This document shows, in pieces, positions 3,306 to 42,119 of a stretch of 56,320 nt of DNA; positions within the stretch are counted from its first letter, which is position 1, and each line of letters begins with the position of its first letter. The stretch lies in contig BDSU01000031.1 in the NCBI GenBank assembly GCA_002897675.1, positions 1 through 56,320 on the forward strand, given 5' to 3'. The notes under the pieces are model-generated. The model was not told the DNA's origin and did no database searches. It saw only the letters and a list, made by a program, of their open reading frames with translations. The DNA comes from a bacterium BMS3Abin02. Its GTDB lineage: Bacteria; Actinomycetota; Acidimicrobiia; Spongiisociales; UBA4744. Position numbers and translations under genes: made by a program.

Positions 3306-4535
3306 GTGAGACGCCTTCTGGTTGTGATGTTCGTGATGACGTGGGTGGCGGATGCGTGTAGCCCGGCCACCCAGCCGCCAACGTCGACCGTCCAGCCTGT
3401 GTCGACGGTCACGTCGATGGTTGCGACGACAACTACGGCTTCGATGGTGCCGCTCGCCACCACGACGTTCGTACAGCCTGACGTGGGTCCGTTGGCGGGG
3501 TTGTCGTGGCCGGGCGGCCGGGTGCCGGTGGGTGCGTTGTTGCATGACGACGGGACGACATTGTGGTCGATCACCCTGGATGGGGAACGTACCGCGCTGT
3601 GGGAGCATCCGCAGGTGAAGCCGGAGGCGTTGGCGGCGGGCCCTGACGGCGCCAGGGTGGCGATGACAGTGCTGTTGCCAGCCCAGAGCACCGACGACTG
3701 GTCGTCGGTGCTCTATGTGTTGGAGGAGGATGGCACGGTGGGCACCGTCGATGCCGTCGATCGGTTCCTTACGTTGGAGTCCCCGATGTTCATCCGCCCG
3801 CCGACCGAACCCGACGAACCTGTGCTCCTCTACTGGCTCCGGTTCGGTGAGACAGTATCCACCGCGACGGGTCGGATGGACACCCATGTGATCGTCGAGA
3901 CCGACACCGGTCCCGCCGAGGTGACCGTCCCGCTACGCCACCACGAGGAGGTGTTCGCCTTCCACTCCTACCCCGGAGCCGCCGTCTTCACCATCACCCT
4001 GTCACGCCAGGGAGACTCGCCTACCCGGCTCGAGATTCTGAAGAACAGGGACTACTGGAGGACCGCCAAGGACGCGTCGCCACTCCTGTGGTCCGACAAC
4101 GAGTTTCGATCCAACACGGACATCTTCGATGGAGTCGCCTGGCCCACCCCCGACCTGTATGTGATTCCCGTCGCCCAGAGGTTCTTCCTGAACGACTACA
4201 GCCTGCGCCTGCTCAAAGACGGCTGCGAGTACTACGGCAGCCACGTTGTCTACCAGGGCACAGACATCGGCAGAGGCTACGCCGAGTACCCCTGGCCGCT
4301 GCTCCCCGGCGGACCCGGCCAGGTCCTCGTCGTCAGCGCCAAAGACGAACAAGCGCTCCTCGACGGCCGAGCCACCGACGTTCCATGGACCGCCGTCGAC
4401 ATTGACTCGGGAAAGCTCACCCCCACCGGCGCCCGCTACGAGCTCGGCACCTGGACCTGGGTCGCCCCCCGAGACGACACCAACCCCACCACTCAACCAC
4501 CGGACTGCACCGCCTGGACCTGGAGCTGGCCGTAG
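3306..4535 (+). CDS. Lipoprotein of unknown function
   Basis: The GTG start at 3306 begins VRRLLVVMFVMTWVADACSP, a short signal peptide with a lipobox-like VADAC, so the mature protein should be lipid-anchored outside the membrane. A Thr/Val/Pro-rich linker follows for about 50 residues. The remaining 350 residues are rich in Asp, Tyr and Trp with repeating hydrophobic strands such as GTTLWSITLDGERTALW, suggesting a beta-propeller-like fold. No catalytic motif is recognised. It lies 10 bases downstream of the transpeptidase gene and probably forms an operon with it. Confidence 0.6.
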   Translation: MRRLLVVMFVMTWVADACSPATQPPTSTVQPVSTVTSMVATTTTASMVPLATTTFVQPDVGPLAGLSWPGGRVPVGALLHDDGTTLWSITLDGERTALWEHPQVKPEALAAGPDGARVAMTVLLPAQSTDDWSSVLYVLEEDGTVGTVDAVDRFLTLESPMFIRPPTEPDEPVLLYWLRFGETVSTATGRMDTHVIVETDTGPAEVTVPLRHHEEVFAFHSYPGAAVFTITLSRQGDSPTRLEILKNRDYWRTAKDASPLLWSDNEFRSNTDIFDGVAWPTPDLYVIPVAQRFFLNDYSLRLLKDGCEYYGSHVVYQGTDIGRGYAEYPWPLLPGGPGQVLVVSAKDEQALLDGRATDVPWTAVDIDSGKLTPTGARYELGTWTWVAPRDDTNPTTQPPDCTAWTWSWP

Positions 4536-5090
4536 CCGCGAACTCCCTTGCTGCTGGTGCTGAGGCCAGGAACGATCGGGCGGACGGGTTGTGCGGTATT
4601 GAGGATGGTCGACCCGGGTGCTGTCGAACCCGCAGGAGTCGTCATGATCGTCGACAAGTCGGTCGTTGCCACGATGTGCGACGAGGCGGCGGGCTTGGCT
4701 GATCGTGGGCAGCCAACCAACACCCCACGAACGCGAGGAGCGTGGTCGCGAGGGCGTGACGCGGATTCGGTCGTGCTGGAGTCATGGTCGATGTCGTCTG
4801 GTCGGGTCTCTTCGGTCACATGTTGCGCAACTTGGGTGATCGGTTCAGGAAGTGAAGATCCGGGGCCGATACGGCGGCCGACATGGTTCCTGGCACCGTG
4901 AAGACCGGCCGGAGGGTGGGTGGGATCGTCATCTGGCGGCTCACCAACGCTACCCCCGACCTCGCGGGCACCGCTGCGATCGCTGCCCTCCCCCGGCATG
5001 GTTGCCGCTTGCCGCGCCCACATCACCTCCATGGAAACAGAGAACTGTGTGGCAATTGAGAAGGCATCCGTATGCCGTTCTCCGTGGCTG
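4536..5090. other. Stretch without a recognisable gene
   Basis: Frames here are low in recognisable motifs and overlap the relaxase 3' end. No RNA gene, repeat or terminator with a T-run was seen. The lipoprotein gene and the relaxase gene converge on this stretch, so it may hold terminators that are not evident by eye. Confidence 0.35.
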
Positions 5091-7826
5091 TCACGAACCT
5101 GCCGCGAGTTGGATCCCGGGCGATCGAGGGTCGGGTTCGCTGTGTTCAGCCTGGCCTCGGGCGGCCGGCTCAAGGACATCGGTGCTCGATGAGGGCGGTC
5201 GCGCGAGGTGGTCGATGACGGCGGTCTGGGCTCGGCTGTGTTCGAGTGACATTGCCAGAGTGTCGAGATCTCCCTTCCAATCCGGATGGGTGAGGTGGGT
5301 GCACTGTTCGTTCGCTGGTTGGGGGTTGGTGAGGTAGAGGGTGTTGGTTTGCCGGCCGCGGCTCATGGCGACGTAGACCCATTCCCGGTCGGTAGCACCC
5401 TCGATCACGGTGAACGTGCGGTCGGTGGTGACGCCTTGCGCTTTGTGACCGGTCATTGCGTAGCCGTAGTCGACGTGCCCTTGATCGAGGTACCAGACAG
5501 GCAGGTCTCTTCTCTCGGGGTCACGGTCGAGCTGCACGTCAAGCGTGCCGTGGTCTGGGTCGACGGAGACGACGATGCCGAGGTCACCGTTGAGTATCCC
5601 GAGCCGACTCTGGTTTTGGCGGCACAGGATCCGGTCACCAGCCTGGAAGACCCGTTCTCCTGTTTCAAGGGCGGGTCCGTGGAGTCGGTTGGATGCGGCC
5701 AGGTGGGTGCGGGCCCTTTGGTTGAGTTCGGTGACGGTGTCGTTGTCGTAGGCGATGAGCAACCCTGAGGTGAGGTCACCGGTAGCTGCAACGTAGCGAT
5801 ACCAGTCGTCCACTGCTCGTGTGATCGTGTTGTCTCGGTCCTGTCCGATGATCAGACGTCGATGCTGTTGGTAGGCGTTGATCGCTTGGTCGACGGACCC
5901 GTTTCGGAGTTGGGTGAGGGCGACACGCTCCCACATCTCGTGTTGACGAACATTCTCGGTCAGCTCGGCCGCCGGGAGCCGGTTGACCAGGGCCCGAAAG
6001 AGGCCTCCGGCTTCGATCTCGGGTAGCTGACGGTCGTCACCGATCAGGATCAGCTTCCCTTGCGCCTGTTCTACGAGGTCGGTGACGGCGGCGAGTTGGC
6101 GGGTGCCTACCATGGCTGCCTCGTCGACCACCACGATCGCACCGTCGGGGAGACCACCGTCTCGGTTTTCTCCTATCAGTCGGGTGAGGGTGACAGACGG
6201 GATCCCAGTGGCTGCTTGGAGGCCGGCGGCGGTCCTGCCGGCCAGCGCCGCCCCGAGAATCGGGGTGCCGGTCATGGCGGCGAGCTGGCTGATCACGGCC
6301 ATGACTGCGGTTTTGCCGGTTCCTGCCGGCCCGATGCCGACGTCGATAGTGTCGCTCGAGGTGGCGAACCGTCGCACCATCTCGGCCTGTCCTTCGGTGA
6401 GGTGCCGGTGGCGTCGCAACCTGCCTTCGACCAGACGGTCGGGTGCGCCCCATCGTCCGGCACCGATCCCGGCGATGGCCTGTTCGATGGTCCGCTGCTC
6501 GGTGGCCAACAGTTCGACGGTCGTGTACTGGCGAGCCACGGTGCCGGGGAACAGGGTGCCGTCGCGACGTCGCATCGGACGGGACACCGCCTCCGTGGCT
6601 GGCTCGACGCTCGTTTCGAGCTCGACCGGATCCTGATCCTCGACGTCGCGTCCGGGTAGGAGCGGTACAACGTCGGATGTGTTGAGGAACGTCTCGGCGA
6701 GGGATTCAATCTGGCTTCGTGTGCCCCCCTCCGGCAAGGCCGCCGCTACCTGCTTGACCACTTCGGCTCGCCCGAACGTGGAGGCCCGTTCGGTGAGCCC
6801 GGCGGGCGAGGCAAGCCGTTTGAACAGCACCTCGGGATCGGCCGGCGGGACATCCCTGCCGCCACCCATCAGCCGGACGATCCGTCCGGGGGTGAGACCC
6901 ACCTCGACGGCCCGCTGTTTCCATTCGACCTCGAGGTCGGCGAGTGGATGATCCTGCTTTGGGCTGCGGGTGGCCAACACTGCTACCTGTCGCGCCGTCG
7001 CGGTGTCCGGCAGGCCTTGTTCTTGGCGCCACTCCTCGAGTTGGTGACGTCTCCGGGAGAACGCTTCGATCTGGGGGCGGGTGAACCCGGCAATGTCGGC
7101 CATCCCGTTGCGGATCGGCTGCCAGCGAACCCCCAAGCGTTCGGTCAGTTCTTTTCGTAGGACGGCTTCGTGGAGGTACCCGGCAGCCAGCTGATACCGA
7201 TACAGCAACCTGCCGTCCACCGTCCGCCACACCCCATCTGTCCCTTTGACCTTGTTGGCGACCACCACATGAGTATGCAGCTGAGGGTCGTCGGCACGAG
7301 ACGTGAACTCGGTGAACGACGCCGCCACATACCCTGACGTCTTGATCGACCAGGTCTCCACCCGAAACCTCCGACTGTCGTTCTCGTTGCGGATCGGGTC
7401 GCCGTTGACGTCGAGAACCGGGGTCTTGGTAGCGCCCCTGGTTGACGACGCGACCGACTCCAAATACCGAAACGCCGCCCCGGTGGCCTCCTCGAACGCC
7501 GACACCACCTGCTGACGGGTCTCGAGATCTCCCAAAGCCCACAGCAGTGACACGGACTTGTCCGCCGAGAACGTCACATCCCACGCCGCCACCCCATCCC
7601 TCCGCAAACACCGTCCCAACCGCTCACCGGTGCCGGGATGCTGACCATCAAACAGGCGGACCAGACTATCTGCGGTCACTGTCCCCGACAGGCCCATCTC
7701 GGCGGCGCCTTTCCCTCGCCAGATGCCGGTGGCGGTGCCACCGCGCAGGTAGTAGTCCTCCCCGGGGGAGATCTCCCCCAACTTGCGCAGGTAATAGTCC
7801 TTGGCGGCCTTGGCCAAACTCAACAC
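5091..7826 (-). CDS. MobF-family conjugative relaxase with helicase domain
   Basis: The product is 911 residues from a GTG start. The N-terminal TrwC-type relaxase domain has tandem tyrosines (DYYLRKL near residue 11 and DYYLRGG near 25) as nicking candidates and a three-histidine metal motif, DDPQLHTHVVV, near residue 180. A RecD/TraI-like helicase follows: Walker A GPAGTGKT near 497, Walker B VVVDEAAM near 565, GDDRQLPEIEAGG, and the late motif TGHKAQGVT with YVAMSRGR. It would nick oriT, bind the 5' end and unwind the strand for transfer. Its GTG overlaps the stop of the small gene upstream. A close relative starts at 54887. Confidence 0.9.
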   Translation of the reverse strand: MLSLAKAAKDYYLRKLGEISPGEDYYLRGGTATGIWRGKGAAEMGLSGTVTADSLVRLFDGQHPGTGERLGRCLRRDGVAAWDVTFSADKSVSLLWALGDLETRQQVVSAFEEATGAAFRYLESVASSTRGATKTPVLDVNGDPIRNENDSRRFRVETWSIKTSGYVAASFTEFTSRADDPQLHTHVVVANKVKGTDGVWRTVDGRLLYRYQLAAGYLHEAVLRKELTERLGVRWQPIRNGMADIAGFTRPQIEAFSRRRHQLEEWRQEQGLPDTATARQVAVLATRSPKQDHPLADLEVEWKQRAVEVGLTPGRIVRLMGGGRDVPPADPEVLFKRLASPAGLTERASTFGRAEVVKQVAAALPEGGTRSQIESLAETFLNTSDVVPLLPGRDVEDQDPVELETSVEPATEAVSRPMRRRDGTLFPGTVARQYTTVELLATEQRTIEQAIAGIGAGRWGAPDRLVEGRLRRHRHLTEGQAEMVRRFATSSDTIDVGIGPAGTGKTAVMAVISQLAAMTGTPILGAALAGRTAAGLQAATGIPSVTLTRLIGENRDGGLPDGAIVVVDEAAMVGTRQLAAVTDLVEQAQGKLILIGDDRQLPEIEAGGLFRALVNRLPAAELTENVRQHEMWERVALTQLRNGSVDQAINAYQQHRRLIIGQDRDNTITRAVDDWYRYVAATGDLTSGLLIAYDNDTVTELNQRARTHLAASNRLHGPALETGERVFQAGDRILCRQNQSRLGILNGDLGIVVSVDPDHGTLDVQLDRDPERRDLPVWYLDQGHVDYGYAMTGHKAQGVTTDRTFTVIEGATDREWVYVAMSRGRQTNTLYLTNPQPANEQCTHLTHPDWKGDLDTLAMSLEHSRAQTAVIDHLARPPSSSTDVLEPAARGQAEHSEPDPRSPGIQLAAGS

Positions 7827-31727: not shown

Positions 31728-33152
31728 TCAGATGTCGTAGTACAGGTGGAACTCGTACGGGTGTGGCCGCAGGCGCATCACATCGATCTCGCTGGAGCGC
31801 TTGTAGTCGATCCACGTATCGATGAGGTCTTCGCTGAACACGTCACCTTTCAGCAGGAAGTCGTGGTCGGCTTCCAGTGCGGCGAGCGCTTCCTCGAGGC
31901 TTCCCGGGACCGACGGCAGATTCGACAGCTCCTCCGGCGGCAGATCGTAGATGTCCTTGTCGACCGGCGGTGGCGGTTCGATCCGATTCTGAATCCCGTC
32001 GAGACCGGCCATCAGCATCGCCGAGAACGCCAGGTACGGGTTCGCCGACGGGTCGGGACAGCGGAACTCGAGGCGCTTCGCGGCCGGCTCCTGTGAATAC
32101 AACGGAATGCGCACGGCCGCCGACCGATTCCTCTGGCTGTACACCAGGTTCACCGGCGCCTCGAAACCGGGCACCAGTCGCCGGTAGGAGTTCGTTGTCG
32201 GTGCGGCGAACGCGAGCACGGCGTCGGCATGCTTCAAGAGACCTCCGATGTACCAGCGAGCCATGTCGGACAGGCCTGCATAGCCACTCTCGTCGTAGAA
32301 CAGCGGCTTGCCGTCGGTCCATAGCGACTGGTGGGTATGCATCCCGGACCCGTTGTCCTCGAAGATCGGTTTCGGCATGAACGTCACCGTCTTGCCTGCT
32401 CGCCATGCGGTGTTCTTGACGAGATACTTGAAGAGTGTGACGTGGTCGGCCTGCTTCAGGAGGGTCTCGTAGCGAATGTCGATCTCGGCCTGGCCGGCGG
32501 TGCCGACCTCGTGATGATGGACCTCGACCTCGATGTCGGCGGCTTCGAGCAAGGCGGTCATCTCCGAGCGTAGGTCCTGGAAGTGATCGGTCGGCGGTAC
32601 CGGGAAGTAGCCCTCCTTGTACCCGGGCTTGTAGCCGAGGTTGCCATCTGGCTCGTCTGCCCCGCTGTTCCAGGCACCCTCGACCGAGTCGACCTCGTAG
32701 AACGCGGAGTGCTGCGTCTGATCGAACCGGACGGAGTCGAAGATGTAGAACTCGGCTTCCGGGCCCCAGTAGGACGTCTCGGCGATCCCCGTACCTCGCA
32801 GGTACGCCTCGGCCTTCTTCGCGATGTACCGAGGGTCTCGGTCGTAGGGCTCACCGGTGGTCGGATCATGTACGAAGCAGTAGATGAGCAGCGTCTTGCG
32901 CTCCATGAACGGATCGGCCGTCGCCGTCGAGGCATCGGGGCGCAACAGCATGTCGGATTCCTGGATCTCGCGAAAACCGCGGATCGACGACCCGTCGAAC
33001 CCGAACCCCTCTTCGAAGCCGGCCTCGGTCAACGTCCTGGCCGGAATCGTGAAGTGCTGTACCTGGCCAGGCAGGTCACAGAAACGAAGGTCGACGAACT
33101 CGAAACCTTCTTCTTCGATGTATCGGATCAGCTCCGCGGGTGTGTATGACAA
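31728..33152 (-). CDS. glnA: Glutamine synthetase type I
   Basis: The product is 474 residues from a TTG at 33152, chosen because GGAGGAG lies five to six bases upstream and the length then equals that of standard GlnA. Motifs are [72 protein letters not shown] and NRSAAVRIP. The adenylylation site is [11 protein letters not shown] with the modifiable Tyr, so it should be regulated by GlnE. It makes glutamine from glutamate and ammonia using ATP. It is divergent from a second glutamine synthetase gene, 142 bases apart. Confidence 0.95.
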
Positions 33153-33190
33153 AAAACTCCTCCGGAAGACATAAGGTTTATACCCGAGGA

Positions 33191-33243
33191 GCGTTTCGCG
33201 CCGGTTGCCGAAATGTGAACGCCGTGTTTCGTCCCGTGTTTCG
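33191..33243. promoter_or_regulatory. Repeated G(C/T)GTTTCG boxes between glutamine synthetase genes
   Basis: GCGTTTCG (33191-33198) and GTGTTTCG (33224-33231, 33236-33243) recur at spacings of 33 and 12 bases, close to whole helix turns. They lie in the shared control region of two divergent glutamine synthetases, one of which is followed by a GlnR-like regulator. GlnR sites of actinobacteria contain GAAAC/GTTTC halves with similar spacing, so these may be its operators. Confidence 0.45.
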
Positions 33244-33294
33244 AGTCGATGCCCGGCCGCGGCTCCGCTACCTTCTGTGGAGAAAGGAGCCCCA

Positions 33295-34620
33295 ATGGAC
33301 AGACAAGCCGAATATGTGCTCCGGACCGTCGAGGAACGAGGAATCCGTTTCATTCGCCTGTGGTTCACGGACGTACAGGGATTCCTGAAGTCGGTCGCGA
33401 TCAATCCCGCCGAACTGGAAGTCGCATTCTCCGAAGGAATGACCTTCGACGGGTCGTCCATCGACGGATACGCGCGCATCCAAGAAGCCGACATGATCGC
33501 CAAGCCCGATCCGTCCACGTTTCAGATCATCCCGTGGCGACCCGAGCAGCAGGTCGCACGGATGTTCTGCGACATTCTCACTCCGGACGGTGAACCCTTC
33601 GAGGGTGATCCACGCTGGGTCTTGAAACGCAACCTTCGCCGGGCGGCCGACCTCGGCTTCACGTTCTACGTCGGACCCGAATTGGAGTGGTTCTACTTCG
33701 AAGACTCGGGTCCGAATCCGAAAGTCCTCGACCGGGGCGGCTATTTCGACCTGACGCCGCTCGACGTCGCCCAGGAGTACCGGCGCACGACGATCAACGC
33801 GCTCGAGCAACTCGGCATCCCTGTCGAATCGTCGCACCACGAAGTCGCTCCCAGTCAGCATGAGATCGACCTGCGCTATACGGACGCGCTCACGATGGCG
33901 GACAACGTGATGACGTACCGCCTCGCCGTCAAGGAGGTCGCCATCGAGCACGGCATCTACGCGACGTTCATGCCCAAGCCCCTTGCCGACCACGACGGCA
34001 ACGGAATGCACGTGCACCTGTCGCTCTTCGAAGGAGATCGCAACGCGTTCTACGAGGCCGGCTCCGATCTGGGCCTTTCAAAGGTTGCCCAGAGCTTCAT
34101 CGCCGGACTCATCAAGCACGGCCCGGAAATCACCGGAGTCACCAATCAGTGGGTCAACTCGTACAAGCGGCTCGTGTCCGGATTCGACGCCCCCCTCTAC
34201 CTGACATGGGCACGGAACAACCAGTCCGCGTTGGTGAGAGTGCCGTCGGTCAAAGCGGGCAAACAGGCTTCGACCCGTGTCGAGTACCGGGCGCCGGACG
34301 CCGCATGCAACCCGTACATGGCCTTCTCGGTGCTGCTGGCAGCGGGTCTGACAGGAATCGAGAACGCGTACGAGCTCTCCCCTGAGATGCCCCGCAACGT
34401 ATACGACCTGACCAAGGCCGAGCGTGCGGCCGCGGACATCGGGAAACTGCCCTCGAACCTGTCGGAGGCCCTGGACCTGATGGAGGACTCAGAACTGGTG
34501 GCCGAGGCGCTCGGTGAGCACATGTTCGGTTGGTTCCTCAAGAACAAGCGCAAGGAGTGGGACCGCTATCAGCGCCACGTCTCACTGTTCGAACTCGAGG
34601 AGTACCTGCCGATTCTCTGA
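33295..34620 (+). CDS. Second glutamine synthetase-family protein
   Basis: The ATG at 33295 gives 441 residues, [20 protein letters not shown]. Catalytic motifs are [65 protein letters not shown] and [13 protein letters not shown]. The adenylylation region reads [16 protein letters not shown]: a Tyr is present but the following residues differ from the usual LPPEE, so GlnE control is unlikely. It may be a GlnA2/GlnA3-type isoenzyme or use another amine. The regulator gene overlaps its stop by one base. Confidence 0.88.
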
Positions 34621-35246
34621 TGCTGGTTGCCGTCATCCCCGCCGAACCGTCGAAGGGCCTCACCGAGGCTCTCCTCGTCGCGGGCGTTACGTGGCGCCCG
34701 GCGCGCGACTCGAACGACGAGTGGAACGAAGCCGGCGTGCTCCTCGTCGAATTGGGAAACGACCCGCAGGGCCGCCTCGCGTCGGCACGACGAATCTACG
34801 AGCGGTCGGGCCTCCCGACGATCGCCGTGACCGATCGCTCCGCCGCCGCGGAGCTGGAGACCGCAGGTTTCCTCATGGACTTCGTCTTCGACCCGCCGGA
34901 TCCTGTGGAGTTGCGACTCCGGCTCCGCAGACTGGCCGACGGGGCCGACGAGACGGAGGTGCTGCGGTTCAAGGAACTCGAGATGAACACGGCCACCTAT
35001 CAGGCGCGCCTCGACGGAGTCCCACTCGACATGGCCTACATGGAGTACGAACTGCTCCGCTTCTTCGTCCAGCATCCGGGGAGGGTGTGGAGTCGCGAGC
35101 AGCTTCTCTCGCGGGTATGGGGGTATGACTACTTCGGCGGGGCACGCACCGTCGACGTTCACGTGCGACGGCTCCGGGCCAAGCTGGGCGAGCAGCGTGC
35201 CCGTTGGATCTCCACGGTTCGTTCGGTCGGCTACCGGTTCGGCTGA
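34620..35246 (+). CDS. GlnR-like orphan response regulator (OmpR-type)
   Basis: The product is 208 residues, [20 protein letters not shown], starting inside the glutamine synthetase stop (TGATG). The N-terminal receiver-like domain lacks the phosphoacceptor: the equivalent strand reads GVLLVELGND. The C-terminal winged helix is typical: MAYMEYELLRFFVQHPGRVW, LLSRVWGYDYFGGARTVDVH, VRRLRAKLG and TVRSVGYRFG. Actinobacterial GlnR is a known phosphorylation-independent regulator of nitrogen genes with this layout. The coupling to a glutamine synthetase supports a nitrogen role; the assignment remains inference. Confidence 0.75.
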   Translation: MLVAVIPAEPSKGLTEALLVAGVTWRPARDSNDEWNEAGVLLVELGNDPQGRLASARRIYERSGLPTIAVTDRSAAAELETAGFLMDFVFDPPDPVELRLRLRRLADGADETEVLRFKELEMNTATYQARLDGVPLDMAYMEYELLRFFVQHPGRVWSREQLLSRVWGYDYFGGARTVDVHVRRLRAKLGEQRARWISTVRSVGYRFG

Positions 35247-35342: not shown

Positions 35343-38300
35343 TCAGCCGCACTCCGGCGGGTCCGAACAGCCGATCGCCACGATCGTGCCACTCAGGTCG
35401 CCCACGATGACCGCACCGTCCAGGATCGCAGGCCGGCTTACTACCCGCCCATCCAACAAGTACCTCCAGAGCTCTTGGTGTGTCTCGAGATCGACCGCAT
35501 AGAGATACGGCTCGTCGGTCGTGAAGTAGAGCACACCATCGCCGACGACCGGCCATCCGACTCTTCCCTCGAGAGGCGAGACCGTATCTGTACTCGGGAA
35601 CTGCCAGAGCTGCCGGCGCGAGACCGCATCCCACGCCTGGATGAAGTTGTCGTTGGCGATGTAAAGGACACCATCCGCGTACGCGGGTGGCGACGTGACT
35701 GTGATGCTGAGCAGGATGCCCGCTTCCGGGTTGCACGATCCGACCTGGACCGCATACAGATTCTGGGCATCCCGAGCGGGAATGAACACCGTGTCACCTG
35801 CGATCACCGGCGGAGAAACGATCGTGTCTCCGGTATCGAAGCACTCTCTGGCCTCGCCCGTCAACGAATCAACAGCCCACAAGATCCCCCCCTCCGTGGG
35901 AACGTACAGGATGCCATCGGCCGCGGCGGACGCCGCCCTGATCGGACTGGCGAGGTCGATATGCCAGCGCTCGTCGAACGGATCTGCCGTATCTACTGCA
36001 TACAGGACACCCCGATTCGTCCCGAAGTAGACGGTGTCACCGAGTACGAGCGGCGCGCTGACGATCTCTCCGTCTGCGACACGCTCTGCCGGAAACTGCC
36101 ACACCTGGGCGGTTCGCTTGCGGGCATCGCTGCGAATTCGAAGCACACCGTCCTTGCTCCCGTAGTAGATCCGCATCCCACTCGTCGGATCGAGTCCACT
36201 CTCGCTCGTCAAGAATGCCAGGGTGGGCGGGCCGAGGATTCCGTCTCCGGCGGAATCCTCGATCCACAACGGCGGGACCCCGGAGGGCATCGCGATTCCG
36301 TAGAGACTGCCGTCCTCGCTCCCAAAGATCACGCTCTCGCCGAACACGGCAGGCGAGGACTCGATCCTGCCACCGGCGGTGTATTTCCAGTAGTAGCCGT
36401 CTGCCGAACGCACACCTGTCCGTTTCGACGCACCGGTATTGTGCGCGAATTGTTCCTGATCGTCCAGATCGCCCGCGAACGTCCACTGGCCGACAACTGT
36501 GTTCTTGCTCGGAGGTCCGAGTTCGGTCTCCCAAATCTCCGGTGGACGAGTCGTCGTCGTGGTCGTTGGAGCGATCACGACAGGAGCGGTCGTCGTCGTC
36601 GTTGGCGGCGGATTGACGACCCTGGCGAGGAAACCGCCACCGAGACCGATCGCCGTCACCGCGACCACGGCGGCGGCAACGCGAATCGGAGTCCATCGGA
36701 AGGGACGTTTGCGCCGCTTCAGACCTCTCGCACGCCGCTGTGCCGGGCTGACCAGCCTGCCTTCGACACCGAGGCCGGCGTCTTGGAGTGCCTGCTCCAA
36801 CTCCATCGAGAGCCGCTCGGATGCCTGGTGGTACGCCTCATCCCCGACTTCGGGCGCTGCAAGCGCGGTCGCGATCTCCGGAAGCGCCTCCCATGCCTCT
36901 CGCCAGTCTTCGGGGATGTGCCCCGCCCTCGCCTTGACCGATGCGACCACTGCTGCCGCTCCCGGCGTATTCCAGAGCCGTCCCGCTTCAGCGGCTTCTG
37001 CAGCGACCCCTGCCACTCCGAGCTGATCGGCGAGTGCCATCGCCTCGGCTGCCAGGGTTGGGTCCTGATCGGCTTTCGATCGAACGATGAGTAGCCGCGC
37101 CGAGGTGAGATACCACTCCGATTGCAGCAACTCGTCAGTGAGGTCGAACGCCTCATCGGCATTCCATGCGTCTCCATTCGCCACACCGATGGCGAGCTGC
37201 ACAACTCGAATCCGCAGACGCCATCTGCGCCCATTGACACCCTCCGGACAGCTGTCGAGTGCCAGCTGTGCCTCCACTTTCGCCTCTGTGGTCCGTCCCG
37301 CACCGAACAAGGCTCTGGCCCGCAGATATCGGGCACTGTTCTCCCAGGCAGGCAGTTGCTGGAGGACCAGTGCCAGCGTTTCGTCGGCAGCTTCGAGTGC
37401 CGTGTCCCATACACCGAAGCGGATCGCGCCCTCGGCAAGCGCCATGTGCGCCAGGAAGACGGGACCGGCGCTCACATCTGCATGCTCGATCGACCGTCGC
37501 CTTGCAGCGAGAGCCTGGTCCGGGCGCCCGGCCATGAACAGTGCTCGAGACCACCACGCTTCCCTGTCCGCCATCAGGGCCGGTCCGCCGGCGCCTCTCG
37601 CCTCGTCGACGAGCCTCGCGAAGCCGGTCTCTGCGTCGCGCGCTCTCCCTCGGTCGAAGGCCACCCACGCCTCGTTGTAGCGCCCTCGCTGCTGTTGCTG
37701 CGCCGTGCCGTGGGAAGAGAGAATCTCCAATCCCTTGTCGAGTTCTGCGTCGGCCTCCTGAGCGAATCCGAGTCGGGCGAGAGTCCTCGCGTGCAGTGTC
37801 AAGAGTGATCCCAGCATCCCGAGCTCACCGGCGATGACGGCTTCCAGAAGGCCTCCCGCCAGCAGCCGCTCCGCTTCTTGGGGAAGCTGCCGGTCGTCCG
37901 CAACCTGTCCTGCGTAGCCGAGCGCGTGGACACGATCAACACCAGACAATCGGTCTGCAGCCACCGTGAGGTCCTCCGCCGCCAGTTCCGACCAACCGGC
38001 AAGCCGGTAGCAGGTAGCTCGCGCCAGACGCAGCCTCCCCTCCAGTTCGGGGTCTTCCGCGCCAGATGCCTCGTATGCACGAAGCGCACCGTCGAGCAAC
38101 GGATACGCCTCCGCGAGATGCTGCCGGTCCGCTCGCTCCAGGCCTGCGCGGGCGAGCAGCGGAAGTGCGTCTCCCCATCGGGCAGCATCGAGGTAATAGC
38201 CGCCGACGAGACCGGGATTCCGCTCTGCGATTCCCACGCGAAGGCCGGCATCGGCAAGAGTGCCATACAGTGCGGCTGTCCGCACGGGACCCAGATACTC

Positions 38301-39158
38301 CCTGAGCCGATCTCTGCCCGGGAGGAAACCCTCCGCCGATTCCGTGGCCAATCCCGCAGCGACGAGGCGCTCACCGATGTCCAGGACATCGTCCTCGGGA
38401 AGGAGAAGGGCCGCCGCTGCGACGGCGATCGTGACGGGCCGGCGAGCGACAGCCAGCAGCTCTGCAAGCCTTCGTTCCGGACCTTCGAGACGGGCGACTC
38501 GTTCCGGGACCCCGATCTCTGCGGGGATCGGGGTTCCGGTGGCCACCAGCGTGCCGCCCTCCCACCGGACGGCACCGGCCGCCTCCCATGCCTCGAGTGT
38601 CTCCACCACGTTCCCTGCGAGTCCGCCCGATGAGCTGATCAGTTGTGTGGCAAGCCGGTCTGCGTCGCTCCCACCGAACAACGCCTCCACGTCGCCCAGG
38701 TTCAGTCGGTCGAGAGTGAGCTCCCAGGACCGCCCCAGTCTGTTCGCGGCCTCCATGAGATTCGCGTAGGCAAACCGTCGATACCCGAAGACTTCTGAAT
38801 GAGCGAGAACGATGATCAGCCCCGAGGATGCCCGCGCCATCCCTGCTCTGAGCAGCGCGAGCGACGTCGCATCGGCCCACTGGGCGTCGTCGATGAGAAG
38901 GGCGCCTTCGAGCTCTCCACCGAGGTCGAGCGCCTCACCGATGCTGCCGGGTTCGGTCTCGGTAGCCTTGAACGCGGCCGTTCGACGAACGGGAATCCCG
39001 TCCTGTTCGAGGTGGCGTTCGAATTCGTCGAGGAGACGGGTGCGACCGCTGCCCGCCTCACCCAGGACCGAGAGCAGTGCGACGCCACCGCCGCGAGCCA
39101 CGTGTTCGGCTTGCGTCAGCGCTTCGAGGTGCTTGCCACGTCCGAGGAACACGTCCAT
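35343..39158 (-). CDS. ATPase - TPR - membrane - PQQ propeller fusion protein
   Basis: A 1271-residue protein. Residues 1-230 are a STAND/AAA_16-like ATPase: GEAGSGRT at 33-40, with Arg39 where the Walker A lysine belongs, and LLIDDAQW at 87-94 as Walker B. About 250-800 are helical TPR-like repeats. Near 825-848 is one membrane helix (RVAAAVVAVTAIGLGGGFLA), then a Thr/Pro linker. From about 890 to the end is an outer beta-propeller with PQQ-type repeats (YYWKYTAGGRIESSPAVFGE, GTVWQF-like strands, LYAVDLETHQELWRYLLDG). It could pass an outside binding signal to an inner oligomerising switch. A DUF1028 gene lies 45 bases upstream. Function is unknown. Confidence 0.8.
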   Translation of the reverse strand: MDVFLGRGKHLEALTQAEHVARGGGVALLSVLGEAGSGRTRLLDEFERHLEQDGIPVRRTAAFKATETEPGSIGEALDLGGELEGALLIDDAQWADATSLALLRAGMARASSGLIIVLAHSEVFGYRRFAYANLMEAANRLGRSWELTLDRLNLGDVEALFGGSDADRLATQLISSSGGLAGNVVETLEAWEAAGAVRWEGGTLVATGTPIPAEIGVPERVARLEGPERRLAELLAVARRPVTIAVAAAALLLPEDDVLDIGERLVAAGLATESAEGFLPGRDRLREYLGPVRTAALYGTLADAGLRVGIAERNPGLVGGYYLDAARWGDALPLLARAGLERADRQHLAEAYPLLDGALRAYEASGAEDPELEGRLRLARATCYRLAGWSELAAEDLTVAADRLSGVDRVHALGYAGQVADDRQLPQEAERLLAGGLLEAVIAGELGMLGSLLTLHARTLARLGFAQEADAELDKGLEILSSHGTAQQQQRGRYNEAWVAFDRGRARDAETGFARLVDEARGAGGPALMADREAWWSRALFMAGRPDQALAARRRSIEHADVSAGPVFLAHMALAEGAIRFGVWDTALEAADETLALVLQQLPAWENSARYLRARALFGAGRTTEAKVEAQLALDSCPEGVNGRRWRLRIRVVQLAIGVANGDAWNADEAFDLTDELLQSEWYLTSARLLIVRSKADQDPTLAAEAMALADQLGVAGVAAEAAEAGRLWNTPGAAAVVASVKARAGHIPEDWREAWEALPEIATALAAPEVGDEAYHQASERLSMELEQALQDAGLGVEGRLVSPAQRRARGLKRRKRPFRWTPIRVAAAVVAVTAIGLGGGFLARVVNPPPTTTTTAPVVIAPTTTTTTRPPEIWETELGPPSKNTVVGQWTFAGDLDDQEQFAHNTGASKRTGVRSADGYYWKYTAGGRIESSPAVFGESVIFGSEDGSLYGIAMPSGVPPLWIEDSAGDGILGPPTLAFLTSESGLDPTSGMRIYYGSKDGVLRIRSDARKRTAQVWQFPAERVADGEIVSAPLVLGDTVYFGTNRGVLYAVDTADPFDERWHIDLASPIRAASAAADGILYVPTEGGILWAVDSLTGEARECFDTGDTIVSPPVIAGDTVFIPARDAQNLYAVQVGSCNPEAGILLSITVTSPPAYADGVLYIANDNFIQAWDAVSRRQLWQFPSTDTVSPLEGRVGWPVVGDGVLYFTTDEPYLYAVDLETHQELWRYLLDGRVVSRPAILDGAVIVGDLSGTIVAIGCSDPPECG

Positions 39159-39203: not shown

Positions 39204-40049
39204 TCAGCGACTCGAGAGAATCTCCAGCACCTTCCGCTCGATCTCCGCCGCGTCGGACCATCGGGCCTCCAGGTTCTCGGCGCCGATCCACGCAAACAGG
39301 GCCTGGCGCAGATCCTCGTCGTAGCCGGAACCACGCCCGCAGTCGTACCCGCGTTCCGAGAGTGCATCCCGCATCACGCGTGCCAACCCGGCATGAATCG
39401 GGACGAACTCGAGATCCTCGGGCCTCGGCAGGAGCACTCGATGGATCTCCACCAACCGGCGCAGTTCTGCGACGGGATCGCGGTGGTCGTCCACCCGGAG
39501 ATCGACGGCCACATCGCTGCCGGCCAGGTACCCGCCGCCTTGGCGCACGACGAGGAGCGCGGCCGACTGGCGACCGCGTCGATCTCCCCCGGCGGCGTCA
39601 CCGGCGCTCAGAGCGGCGAGCAGTCGCGTTGTGAGGTCGCCGGACGCTGCCTCGAACGCTTCCACCATCTGGTCGACGACGTGGGGCCCCGTGAGGATGT
39701 TGCCCTGGCAGGCGTACCCGTCACCCGTGCGGCCTCCCGCCCAGTCGAAACACTCTGCACCGGTGAACGAGGCTGCCCGCCCGATGGCGTCGATCATGCC
39801 GACTTGACGAAGCGCACGCTTGTCGTCGGTACTCGTCAACCTCCGGATCGTCGCCTCGGCCGACTCGCCGGACTCCATCGCCCGCAGCCCGTCTGGCCCA
39901 TACGCCACGTTCGCGTACGACTGGGTTGCAACGGCACCGGTTCCTGCACGGGCCCACGGCACGACCGATCCGACGGCCAGGAACTTCGACGCGACGGCGA
40001 CGCCCCACTCCTGGGCTGCCGGGTCATGAGCCACAATCGAGAAAGTCAT
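39204..40049 (-). CDS. DUF1028 family protein (Ntn-hydrolase-like)
   Basis: From the ATG at 40049 the product is 281 residues, MTFSIVAHDPAAQEWGVAVA. DUF1028 features are the N-terminal TFSIVAHD, GVAVASKFLAVGSVVPWARA, GAVATQSYANVAYGPDGL and the ECFDWAGGRTGDGYACQGNI motif. The fold is related to Ntn-hydrolases; the enzyme reaction is not established. It is transcribed with the large ATPase-propeller gene 45 bases downstream. A start at 40070 is less likely because it lacks the family's N-terminal alignment. Confidence 0.85.
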   Translation of the reverse strand: MTFSIVAHDPAAQEWGVAVASKFLAVGSVVPWARAGTGAVATQSYANVAYGPDGLRAMESGESAEATIRRLTSTDDKRALRQVGMIDAIGRAASFTGAECFDWAGGRTGDGYACQGNILTGPHVVDQMVEAFEAASGDLTTRLLAALSAGDAAGGDRRGRQSAALLVVRQGGGYLAGSDVAVDLRVDDHRDPVAELRRLVEIHRVLLPRPEDLEFVPIHAGLARVMRDALSERGYDCGRGSGYDEDLRQALFAWIGAENLEARWSDAAEIERKVLEILSSR

Positions 40050-40124
40050 ATCAGCATCCCAGCCTCCCACTCTCGAGACGTTTCAGGGCATTAATCCCCG
40101 TCAACCGTCACGAGAACGAGAGAG

Positions 40125-41636
40125 TCATCCGAATTCGATGCCCTGGGCAAGCGGCATCTCGCCGCTCCAGTTGATCGTGGTGGTCTGGCGGCGCATGTAC
40201 GCCTTCCACGCATCCGATCCGGCCTCTCTACCTCCGCCGGTCTCCTTCTCACCGCCGAACGCCCCCCCGATCTCGGCACCCGAGGTACCGATGTTCACAT
40301 TGGCGATACCGCAGTCGGAGCCCTCGTGAGAAAGGAACTTCTCCGCATTCCTCACCGAGTCGGTGAAGATCGCCGATGACAGCCCCTGACGAACACCATT
40401 CTGGATTTCGATCGCTTCCTCGACAGACGACACTTCGATGATGTAGAGCAACGGCGCGAAGGTCTCCTCTTGAAGGATCGGGGCGTCTTTGGGCATCTTC
40501 ATGATCGTTGGCTGGATGAAGTTCGCACCGAGACCCTCGAGACGATCGCCACCGTAGAGCAGTTCACCACCCTGCTGCTTGGCGAGATCGATCGCCGTGA
40601 GCATGTTGAACACCGCCGCCTCATTGACGAGTGGACCCATCAAGATCCCCGAATCGAGAGGATCACCGACCGGAACCTGACGGTATGCATCGACCATGCG
40701 TCTGGCGACTTCATCGACCACTGCTTCGTGCACGATGAGCCTGCGCAATGAAGTGCACCGCTGCCCGGCGGTGCCGACCGCCGCGAACAGGGCAGCCCGC
40801 GTCACGAGGTCCAGATCCGCGTCGTCCATCACGATCATGGCGTTGTTGCCGCCAAGCTCGAGCAGCGACCTCCCCAGACGCCGTGCGACGCCGACGCCCA
40901 CCTTGTAGCCCATGTCGCATGAGCCGGTTGCCGACACGAGCGGCACGCGGTTGTCCTTGACCATGAGGTCGCCGACGTCGGCCCCGCTACCGAACGCCAG
41001 GTTGAAGACCCCCTCGAATCCGCTTCCCTCCATCACCAAATGCGTGATGTTCGTTACGGCGATCGCAGTGAGCGGCGTCGAGCTGGACGGTTTCCACACG
41101 TTCGTATCACCACAGACGGCGGCGATCAGAGCGTTCCACGACCACACGGCGGTCGGGAAGTTGAACGAAGAGATGATGCCGATCGGTCCCAGCGGATGCC
41201 ACTGTTCGTACATGCGGTGTCGTGGCCGCTCCGACGCCATGGTGACGCCGTACAGTTGGCGGGAAAGACCGACTGCGAAGTCGGAAATGTCGACCATCTC
41301 CTGAACTTCTCCCTCGCCTTCGAGAAGGATCTTGCCCATTTCCATGGTGACCAGCACACCGAGAGCGCTCTTCTTCTCCCGTAGCGCGTCGCCGATCCTG
41401 CGCACGTACTTTCCCCGCTCCGGTGCGGGGACCATCCGCCAGCGCTCGAACGTCTTCACAGAGTCCTGGATGACAGCCTCATAGTCTTCAGCCGAGGCGC
41501 GGACCACTTTCGCGATCACCTCGCCGGTTGCGGGGTTGACCGACTCCAGGGTCTTGCCGTGGGCCTGCCTCCAGCCGCTCGAATAGACACCCGAGTTGAC
41601 CTCGGAGAGTCCGAGCGTTTCGAGGATCTCCTTCAT
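40125..41636 (-). CDS. Aldehyde dehydrogenase, antiquitin (ALDH7) type
   Basis: The ATG at 41636, eight bases after GAAGGAGG, gives 503 residues. NAD-binding and catalytic motifs are SFNFPTAVWSWN, VWKPSSSTPLTAIA, catalytic Glu in LLELGGNNAMIVMDD, catalytic Cys in GTAGQRCTSLRRLIVHE, and EETFAPLLYIIE. The N-terminal STP/SSFNFP pattern and QRCTSLRR match alpha-aminoadipic semialdehyde dehydrogenases of lysine catabolism. The exact aldehyde is uncertain. It lies 11 bases after ridA, suggesting joint transcription. Confidence 0.9.
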   Translation of the reverse strand: MKEILETLGLSEVNSGVYSSGWRQAHGKTLESVNPATGEVIAKVVRASAEDYEAVIQDSVKTFERWRMVPAPERGKYVRRIGDALREKKSALGVLVTMEMGKILLEGEGEVQEMVDISDFAVGLSRQLYGVTMASERPRHRMYEQWHPLGPIGIISSFNFPTAVWSWNALIAAVCGDTNVWKPSSSTPLTAIAVTNITHLVMEGSGFEGVFNLAFGSGADVGDLMVKDNRVPLVSATGSCDMGYKVGVGVARRLGRSLLELGGNNAMIVMDDADLDLVTRAALFAAVGTAGQRCTSLRRLIVHEAVVDEVARRMVDAYRQVPVGDPLDSGILMGPLVNEAAVFNMLTAIDLAKQQGGELLYGGDRLEGLGANFIQPTIMKMPKDAPILQEETFAPLLYIIEVSSVEEAIEIQNGVRQGLSSAIFTDSVRNAEKFLSHEGSDCGIANVNIGTSGAEIGGAFGGEKETGGGREAGSDAWKAYMRRQTTTINWSGEMPLAQGIEFG

Positions 41637-41647
41637 ATCCGCCTCCT

Positions 41648-42028
41648 TCACCGGCTTGCCACGACTTCGATCTCGACCAGAAAACCGCCGGGCAGCGCGG
41701 CAACCTCCACGGTCGCTCTGGCCGGCGGGTCGCCTTCGAACCGCTTGCCATACACCTCGTTCACGATCGGAAAGTCGGCCATGTTGGCAAGGAAGATCGT
41801 CGTCTTCACCACATCGGGGAACCCGAGACCGATATCGCCGAGAATCGCACCGACATTCGCCATGATCTGTCCGGTCTGGGCGGCGACATCGTCGGGCGCA
41901 CGGTCCCCGGTCGCCGGATCGATCGCGACCTGACCGGAGATGAACACCAGGCCGCCTGCCTCCACGGCCACCGAATATGGTCCCAACGCCGCCGGTGCGC
42001 TGGGTGTTTCGAGAACTCGCTTCGCCAT
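41648..42028 (-). CDS. RidA-family reactive imine deaminase
   Basis: The 126-residue protein from the ATG at 42028 reads MAKRVLETPSAPAALGPYSV. RidA hallmarks are APAALGPYSVAVEAGGLVFI, the SGQVAIDPATG loop, MANVGAILGDIG, VKTTIFLANMADFPIVNEVY and the arginine-containing PPARATVEVAALPGG that binds the imine carboxylate. It hydrolyses reactive enamine/imine intermediates from amino-acid degradation. Its place before an aldehyde dehydrogenase suggests a shared amino-acid catabolic unit. Confidence 0.9.
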   Translation of the reverse strand: MAKRVLETPSAPAALGPYSVAVEAGGLVFISGQVAIDPATGDRAPDDVAAQTGQIMANVGAILGDIGLGFPDVVKTTIFLANMADFPIVNEVYGKRFEGDPPARATVEVAALPGGFLVEIEVVASR

Positions 42029-42070
42029 GACTGCTCCTCGTTGTGTTGTGGAATCAAGGCTACCTCCCCC

Positions 42071-42119
42071 AGTCTCGTCAATGCTGGCAGCACCAGGTAC
42101 GGCCAGCATTGACGAGACT
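42071..42119. terminator. Perfect 18-bp hairpin after the hydrolase gene
   Basis: AGTCTCGTCAATGCTGGC (42071-42088) pairs perfectly with 42102-42119, loop 13 bases. The right arm ends at the stop codon of the minus-strand hydrolase gene, which it may terminate. There is no T-run. Confidence 0.5.

Follow-up and report, generated by a model that had tools for sequence, protein, structure and literature searches.

A gene in the window (the whole 56,320-nucleotide stretch of DNA that was analysed) encodes a protein that starts with an AAA_16/STAND-like P-loop domain, continues through a winged-helix segment and a TPR solenoid to one transmembrane (TM) helix, and ends, after a Thr/Pro linker, in an eight-bladed PQQ/BamB-type propeller (Table 1). 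At about even confidence, we read it as a single-pass membrane receptor built from an AfsR/SARP-type STAND body, working through contacts, with no ATP switching and no direct DNA binding. A literature search covering this layout, SPAQRR and DUF1028 returned nothing relevant, and the combination of ATPase, TPR, TM helix and propeller appears undescribed in the literature searched, as the initial annotation of this DNA had suspected.

Table 1. Features of the gene, its product and its neighbours in the window
Feature	Position	Strand	Basis
Complete ORF, 1271 aa, ATG start	35343..39158	-	genus copy 92% identical, dN/dS 0.18
Degenerate AAA_16/STAND P-loop domain, residues 1-205	38544..39158	-	Pfam AAA_16; P-loop a/b secondary structure in model
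Walker A variant GEAGSGRT, residues 33-40, with R39 instead of K	39039..39062	-	alignment of 13 ATPase-bearing members, K in 0
Walker B region ALLIDDAQWAD, residues 86-96, kept	38871..38903	-	alignment
Winged-helix-like segment, residues 206-300; start of shorter family members	38259..38543	-	model; member alignment
TPR solenoid, residues 301-795, best conserved large part	36774..38258	-	model m998db145f446, fold matches, median identity 42%
Juxtamembrane motif VSPAQRRARGLKRRK, residues 803-817; P805-R808 and G812 invariant	36708..36752	-	alignment
Single TM helix, residues 827-845, N-terminus inside by charge	36624..36680	-	charge
Thr/Pro-rich linker, residues 850-873	36540..36611	-	sequence
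Eight-bladed PQQ/BamB-type propeller, residues 916-1265	35364..36413	-	Pfam, model, fold matches
Span C1142 to C1106, conserved propeller cysteine pair	35733..35843	-	invariant and nearly invariant columns
DUF1028 + PG_binding_2 gene on the same strand, 45 bases upstream; linkage not general	39204..40070	-	Pfam; locus comparison
OmpR/PhoB-type regulator, convergent with the gene; together with glutamine synthetase genes it anchors the shared locus	34530..35246	+	profile matches; locus comparison
RidA gene, other side of shared locus	41648..42109	-	profile match; locus comparison

The gene is a minus-strand open reading frame (ORF) running from 39158 down to 35343 without internal stops. The plus-strand reading of this interval was rejected, as the frames there are interrupted or spurious. 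The gene is present once in its own genome. It is not a chance ORF, since a same-genus copy is 92% identical with a dN/dS of 0.18 and the window's order has homologues in 33 of its 138 genomes. These members are spread over seven families of the order and their distribution is patchy; three of the five genomes in the window's own family carry the gene. A sample of the class (395 genomes) yielded a single match, to the propeller only, and a sample of the phylum (396 genomes) had no match beyond the order at 1e-15. One true member, from an Acidimicrobiia metagenome genome already in the order's list, was retrieved in a scan of GTDB contigs, together with generic AAA_16 proteins. Within the genomes searched, the family is small and found only in one order of uncultured Acidimicrobiia. 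A role in anti-phage defence was rejected, as no PADLOC model matched the window protein.

Domain searches detected both an ATPase and a propeller. Pfam AAA_16 matched residues 4-55 with an E-value of 5e-7 and 30.7 bits, slightly below the gathering score of 32.6, and rose above the cut-off in the genome search once a second stretch was added. PQQ_2/Beta-prop matched at about residues 922-1262 (E-value 1e-21). Pfam called no TPRs in the window protein, but did so in its relatives. We predicted the structure in two pieces (residues 1-850 and 815-1271) from alignments of family members, and both models were confident. In the first (mean pLDDT 87.6), a P-loop a/b domain and a winged helix precede a long TPR-like solenoid of helical hairpins, and the top Foldseek match of this model is the STAND-TPR crystal structure 6mfv. 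Domain III of MalT aligned with the TPR model over 347 residues (Z 20.6, rmsd 4.4), and several other TPR solenoids scored as high or higher; a PDB sequence search with the cytoplasmic profile gave TPR matches only, and these were weak. The second model is a propeller (pLDDT 83.8 overall, low in the TM and linker part) that superimposes on the designed eight-bladed Cake8 over 311 residues at 1.7 A (Z 40.3) and also matches Rv3035 (Z 39), YxaL and BamB. The TM helix is preceded by RRARGLKRRKRPFR, which is rich in Arg and Lys and therefore places the N-terminus inside and the propeller outside. The initial annotation had described an ATPase and TPRs of STAND-like origin inside the cell, joined by one helix and a Thr linker to an outer PQQ-type propeller; Pfam, the models (with the Foldseek match) and the charge around the TM helix bear this out, and its idea of a membrane sensor gains support.

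We assessed whether the propeller belongs to a known functional class. The model for PQQ-dependent dehydrogenases scored 38.6 bits against a cut-off of 480 and the BamB equivalog 72.6 bits against 285.2. An enzymatic quinoprotein was rejected, as the scores lie far under the family cut-offs. The propeller carries a conserved pair of cysteines, one in an invariant column and the other in a column that only a single cut-off row lacks, and its cysteine count is even in all 24 members. This pattern fits a disulfide and would be compatible with an exported, oxidised domain. Genomes of family f4 (L022 1510-2871 and L025 1285-2709) encode short, separate proteins in which a basic tail and one TM helix accompany a related propeller; they have neither a TPR body nor the juxtamembrane PAQR motif.

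The P-loop fold, Walker B, winged helix and repeat region expected of a STAND/AAA_16 protein are present in order in the window protein, and the Walker A lysine (GxxxxGK[ST]) is not. The lysine had been noted as replaced by arginine (GEAGSGRT), and R39 is indeed found there, in the window protein and the genus copy. We surveyed the 13 ATPase-bearing members, comprising nine propeller-type proteins, some of them truncated at contig ends, and four SARP-type proteins (described below). The lysine is lost in all 13; arginine is not the general replacement, as glutamine, threonine or no motif at all also occur. Other variants read GDAASGRS, GSSGSGRE, GGTGSGTE and GASGPDQE, the SARP-type proteins have GEPEAGVG, GEAEAGIE or GDAEAGIE, and in three members (L008, L010 and L048) the motif is unrecognisable. 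Walker B and the QWAD stretch are retained in most propeller-type members; the SARP-type proteins read IVQSAHHA instead. As a control, all 10 outside-family proteins that matched the family ATPase profile (E ≤ 0.01) have GxxxxGK[ST]. At least 16 members lack the ATPase domain altogether and begin at the winged helix; no separate upstream ATPase gene was seen for them, and the upstream genes were unrelated where looked at. In a tree of the winged helix/TPR region, which is unrooted and has a long SARP branch, ATPase-bearing and ATPase-less members fall on both sides of a branch with 100/99 support (the window protein and its kin on one side, L008, L010 and L048 on the other). If the domain is ancestral, it was thus lost at least twice. 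On the aligned motifs, the altered Walker A is part of a family-wide decay and not a special or tuned nucleotide switch.

A comparison of the two same-genus copies gives dN/dS values of 0.25 for the ATPase, 0.39 for the winged helix, 0.16 for the TPRs, 0.08 for the juxtamembrane/TM part and 0.10 for the propeller, the short parts containing few substitutions. The value for the ATPase indicates that this domain is under some selection, yet is constrained less than the rest of the protein. We therefore read the window's domain as a putative pseudo-ATPase that may serve a structural role, within a family able to do without it. Two points speak against a receptor free of ATP switching: P-loops with arginine in place of lysine can still bind nucleotide, and four members, including the window's, retain an otherwise fair Walker A motif plus Walker B. 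A nucleotide-switched membrane STAND receptor, in which R39 permits ATP binding with slow hydrolysis and the propeller signal leads to ATP-driven assembly, would accord with the retention of the P-loop fold and Walker B in the window protein and genus copy, with purifying selection on the ATPase and with the ATP binding through which AfsR and MalT function (PMC10936776). We consider it improbable, however, because the lysine is absent in all members, the motif is lost in several and the domain in many, so that different mechanisms would be required inside one family. With the lysine missing throughout and at least 16 members devoid of the domain, nucleotide switching cannot be the general function of the family, and the initial suggestion of nucleotide binding with altered hydrolysis as the working principle is not supported.

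The origin of the inside half is indicated by a second form of the protein. In one sister family (G008, G015, G022 and G029), a second member combines BTAD, Trans_reg_C, a degenerate ATPase and TPRs, as assigned by a Pfam run on L027, and has neither a TM helix nor a propeller. In the two loci examined with flanks (L075 and L076), this SARP-type gene occupies the position of the window gene, in the same order of glutamine synthetase, OmpR-type regulator, SARP-type gene, RidA and further shared neighbours. Canonical relatives elsewhere are BTAD-AAA_16-TPR proteins and LuxR-type AAA_16 regulators. Together with the SARP form at the same locus, they identify the inside half as an AfsR/SARP- or LAL-type body; the tree, being unrooted with a long SARP branch, sets no age order between the SARP and membrane forms. 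The window protein has the NOD followed by TPRs of SARP/AfsR proteins and lacks their N-terminal Trans_reg_C and BTAD, which are present in L027.

Every membrane member has kept the TPR body, the motif PAQR-x(3)-G, the TM helix and a propeller with the conserved cysteine pair. The strongest short conserved element, [ST]PAQR-x(3)-G[LM], lies just inside the membrane; P805, A806, Q807, R808 and G812 are identical in every propeller-type member that spans them, and a single protein (L039) has arginine after the glycine instead of L/M. No other ORF in the loci searched matched the pattern, and the SARP-type members end upstream of it. Between families, the median identity to the window protein is 42% for the TPRs, 28% for the ATPase and 26% for the propeller. 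The difference between TPRs and propeller is as expected for a shared partner inside and varying ligands outside.

What the protein retains, namely an outer propeller, a TM helix and an inner TPR surface, points to a receptor working by contacts; its independence from ATP switching is supported by the lysine kept in 0 of 13 members against 10 of 10 outside proteins and by the loss of the domain in at least 16. In this mechanism, the propeller would bind an envelope protein or wall component, binding would alter how the TM helix and juxtamembrane segment pack, and the TPR solenoid would thereupon capture or release a cytoplasmic partner. Output would pass through protein contact, with neither ATP-driven oligomerisation nor direct DNA binding. 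A broader claim, which we make only tentatively, is that the family is a new class of transmembrane receptor, in which a SARP/STAND body had its DNA-binding end removed, gained a TM helix and propeller and discarded its ATP switch, with PAQR-x(3)-G transmitting the signal. A pure scaffold would give the same features, which counts against the receptor reading. As an envelope scaffold, the main rival, the protein would hold envelope enzymes together through its propeller, like BamB or Rv3035, and tether machinery inside through its TPR body, with no signal. Its nearest propeller folds are BamB, YxaL and Rv3035, Rv3035 operates in an envelope complex that also includes FecB and AftB (PMC12802301), and Pfam finds no effector domain in the window protein; the Rv3035 precedent speaks for the receptor reading as well. 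We regard a scaffold as rather unlikely, since the body is that of a signalling family and the same locus encodes, in a sister form, a transcription factor, and since invariance is strongest at the inner membrane face, a site for coupling.

We compared the neighbourhoods of the family members. In 20 loci, no conserved operon or partner gene recurs between families other than the glutamine synthetase/OmpR/RidA locus, which is common to the window's family and the SARP-type copies. That no partner gene co-travels and neighbourhoods differ between families is a further point against the receptor reading, and it is from the architecture alone that we infer signalling. The OmpR regulator is present in 46 of 59 relatives and adjoins a glutamine synthetase gene in 20 extracted loci. 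The interval between it and the L-piperidine-6-carboxylate (P6C) dehydrogenase/RidA genes varies: besides the window gene and the SARP form, it can hold a cystathionine-synthase-like gene, methyltransferases or an ECF sigma/membrane-protein pair, or nothing at all (names assigned by eye, except those from Pfam/NCBIfam). Under a local alternative, the TPR body would hold the OmpR regulator at the membrane and control nitrogen metabolism through the adjacent OmpR gene and glutamine synthetases. The window's genus and the sister family, the latter with the SARP-type form, have the order glutamine synthetase, OmpR, gene, RidA in common; however, most genomes of the order retain the OmpR/glutamine synthetase locus without the window gene, and most family members are located elsewhere, which makes this alternative very doubtful.

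A DUF1028 gene linked to the fusion had been proposed for survey. The link is limited to the window's genus, and elsewhere DUF1028 does not lie beside the gene. Two same-family genomes have DUF1028 at the same locus without the window gene; in one of them (L111), the OmpR gene and DUF1028 are 166 bases apart with nothing between. DUF1028 was rejected as a functional partner, as the linkage is not retained.

Further observations concern the locus itself. At 31728-35246 of the window, two different glutamine synthetase genes are divergent with overlapping ORF starts, followed by the OmpR-type regulator, which has a doubtful GlnR-like N-terminus (E-value 0.12). The DUF1028 protein at 39204-40070 bears its peptidoglycan-binding-like domain at the C-terminus. 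At 40125-42109, a P6C dehydrogenase gene (above the NCBIfam cut-off) overlaps RidA, and the pair is retained beside the glutamine synthetase/OmpR locus across much of the order, possibly tying lysine breakdown to nitrogen control. In L122 (G040:C22, about 4502-7658), the same variable site holds an ECF-sigma-like gene and then a gene for a protein of 882 aa, whose short N-terminal part is followed by a TM segment and, outside, by a repeat-like region; the two may form a sigma/anti-sigma pair with an outer sensor.

Under the receptor reading, the family is an example of a soluble, nucleotide-switched regulator body put to use in a membrane receptor for which the switch has become dispensable. 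Stages of the decay are visible within one order, from a P-loop damaged at one residue through a destroyed motif to loss of the domain. The transcription-factor form at the same locus offers a comparison for the membrane form, and PAQR-x(3)-G, a short invariant motif at the inner membrane, is a candidate for signal transmission.

We compared the window protein with known systems. BamB, YxaL and Rv3035 share the eight-bladed PQQ-like fold of its propeller and lack a cytoplasmic part; Rv3035/MMAR_1667, a mycobacterial eight-bladed propeller, works with the envelope proteins FecB and AftB (PMC12802301). A BTAD-AAA_16-TPR-SBP_bac_5 protein from Anaerolineales (L035, 4528-8586) likewise has a STAND body with a C-terminal, normally extracellular domain, but no TM segment and an intact Walker A; its solute-binding domain, attached to a regulator, appears to be intracellular. 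AfsK-type Ser/Thr kinases with PQQ repeats also join a cytoplasmic signalling part to a PQQ-type propeller. The NCBIfam AfsK profile matches the window propeller (E-value 3e-14, 52.6 bits against a cut-off of 1300), whereas the kinase domain is absent, with no Pfam or NCBIfam kinase match. MalT and the LuxR-type STAND regulators (LAL) have the same STAND layout and a TPR-like domain; the window protein differs in having no LuxR HTH, no intact P-loop and a membrane anchor. In AfsR, the NOD and TPRs inhibit the SARP domain and ATP binding relieves the inhibition (PMC10936776). This mechanism cannot apply as such to the present family, in which the membrane form has no DNA-binding domain and its ATP switch is either damaged or gone. 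AfsR and the large SARPs, which are BTAD-NOD-TPR transcription factors, share the NOD/AAA_16, winged helix and TPRs with the window protein, and its family includes BTAD-bearing members at the same locus; the window protein lacks the BTAD/DNA-binding domain and the Walker A lysine, and has a TM helix and a propeller added.
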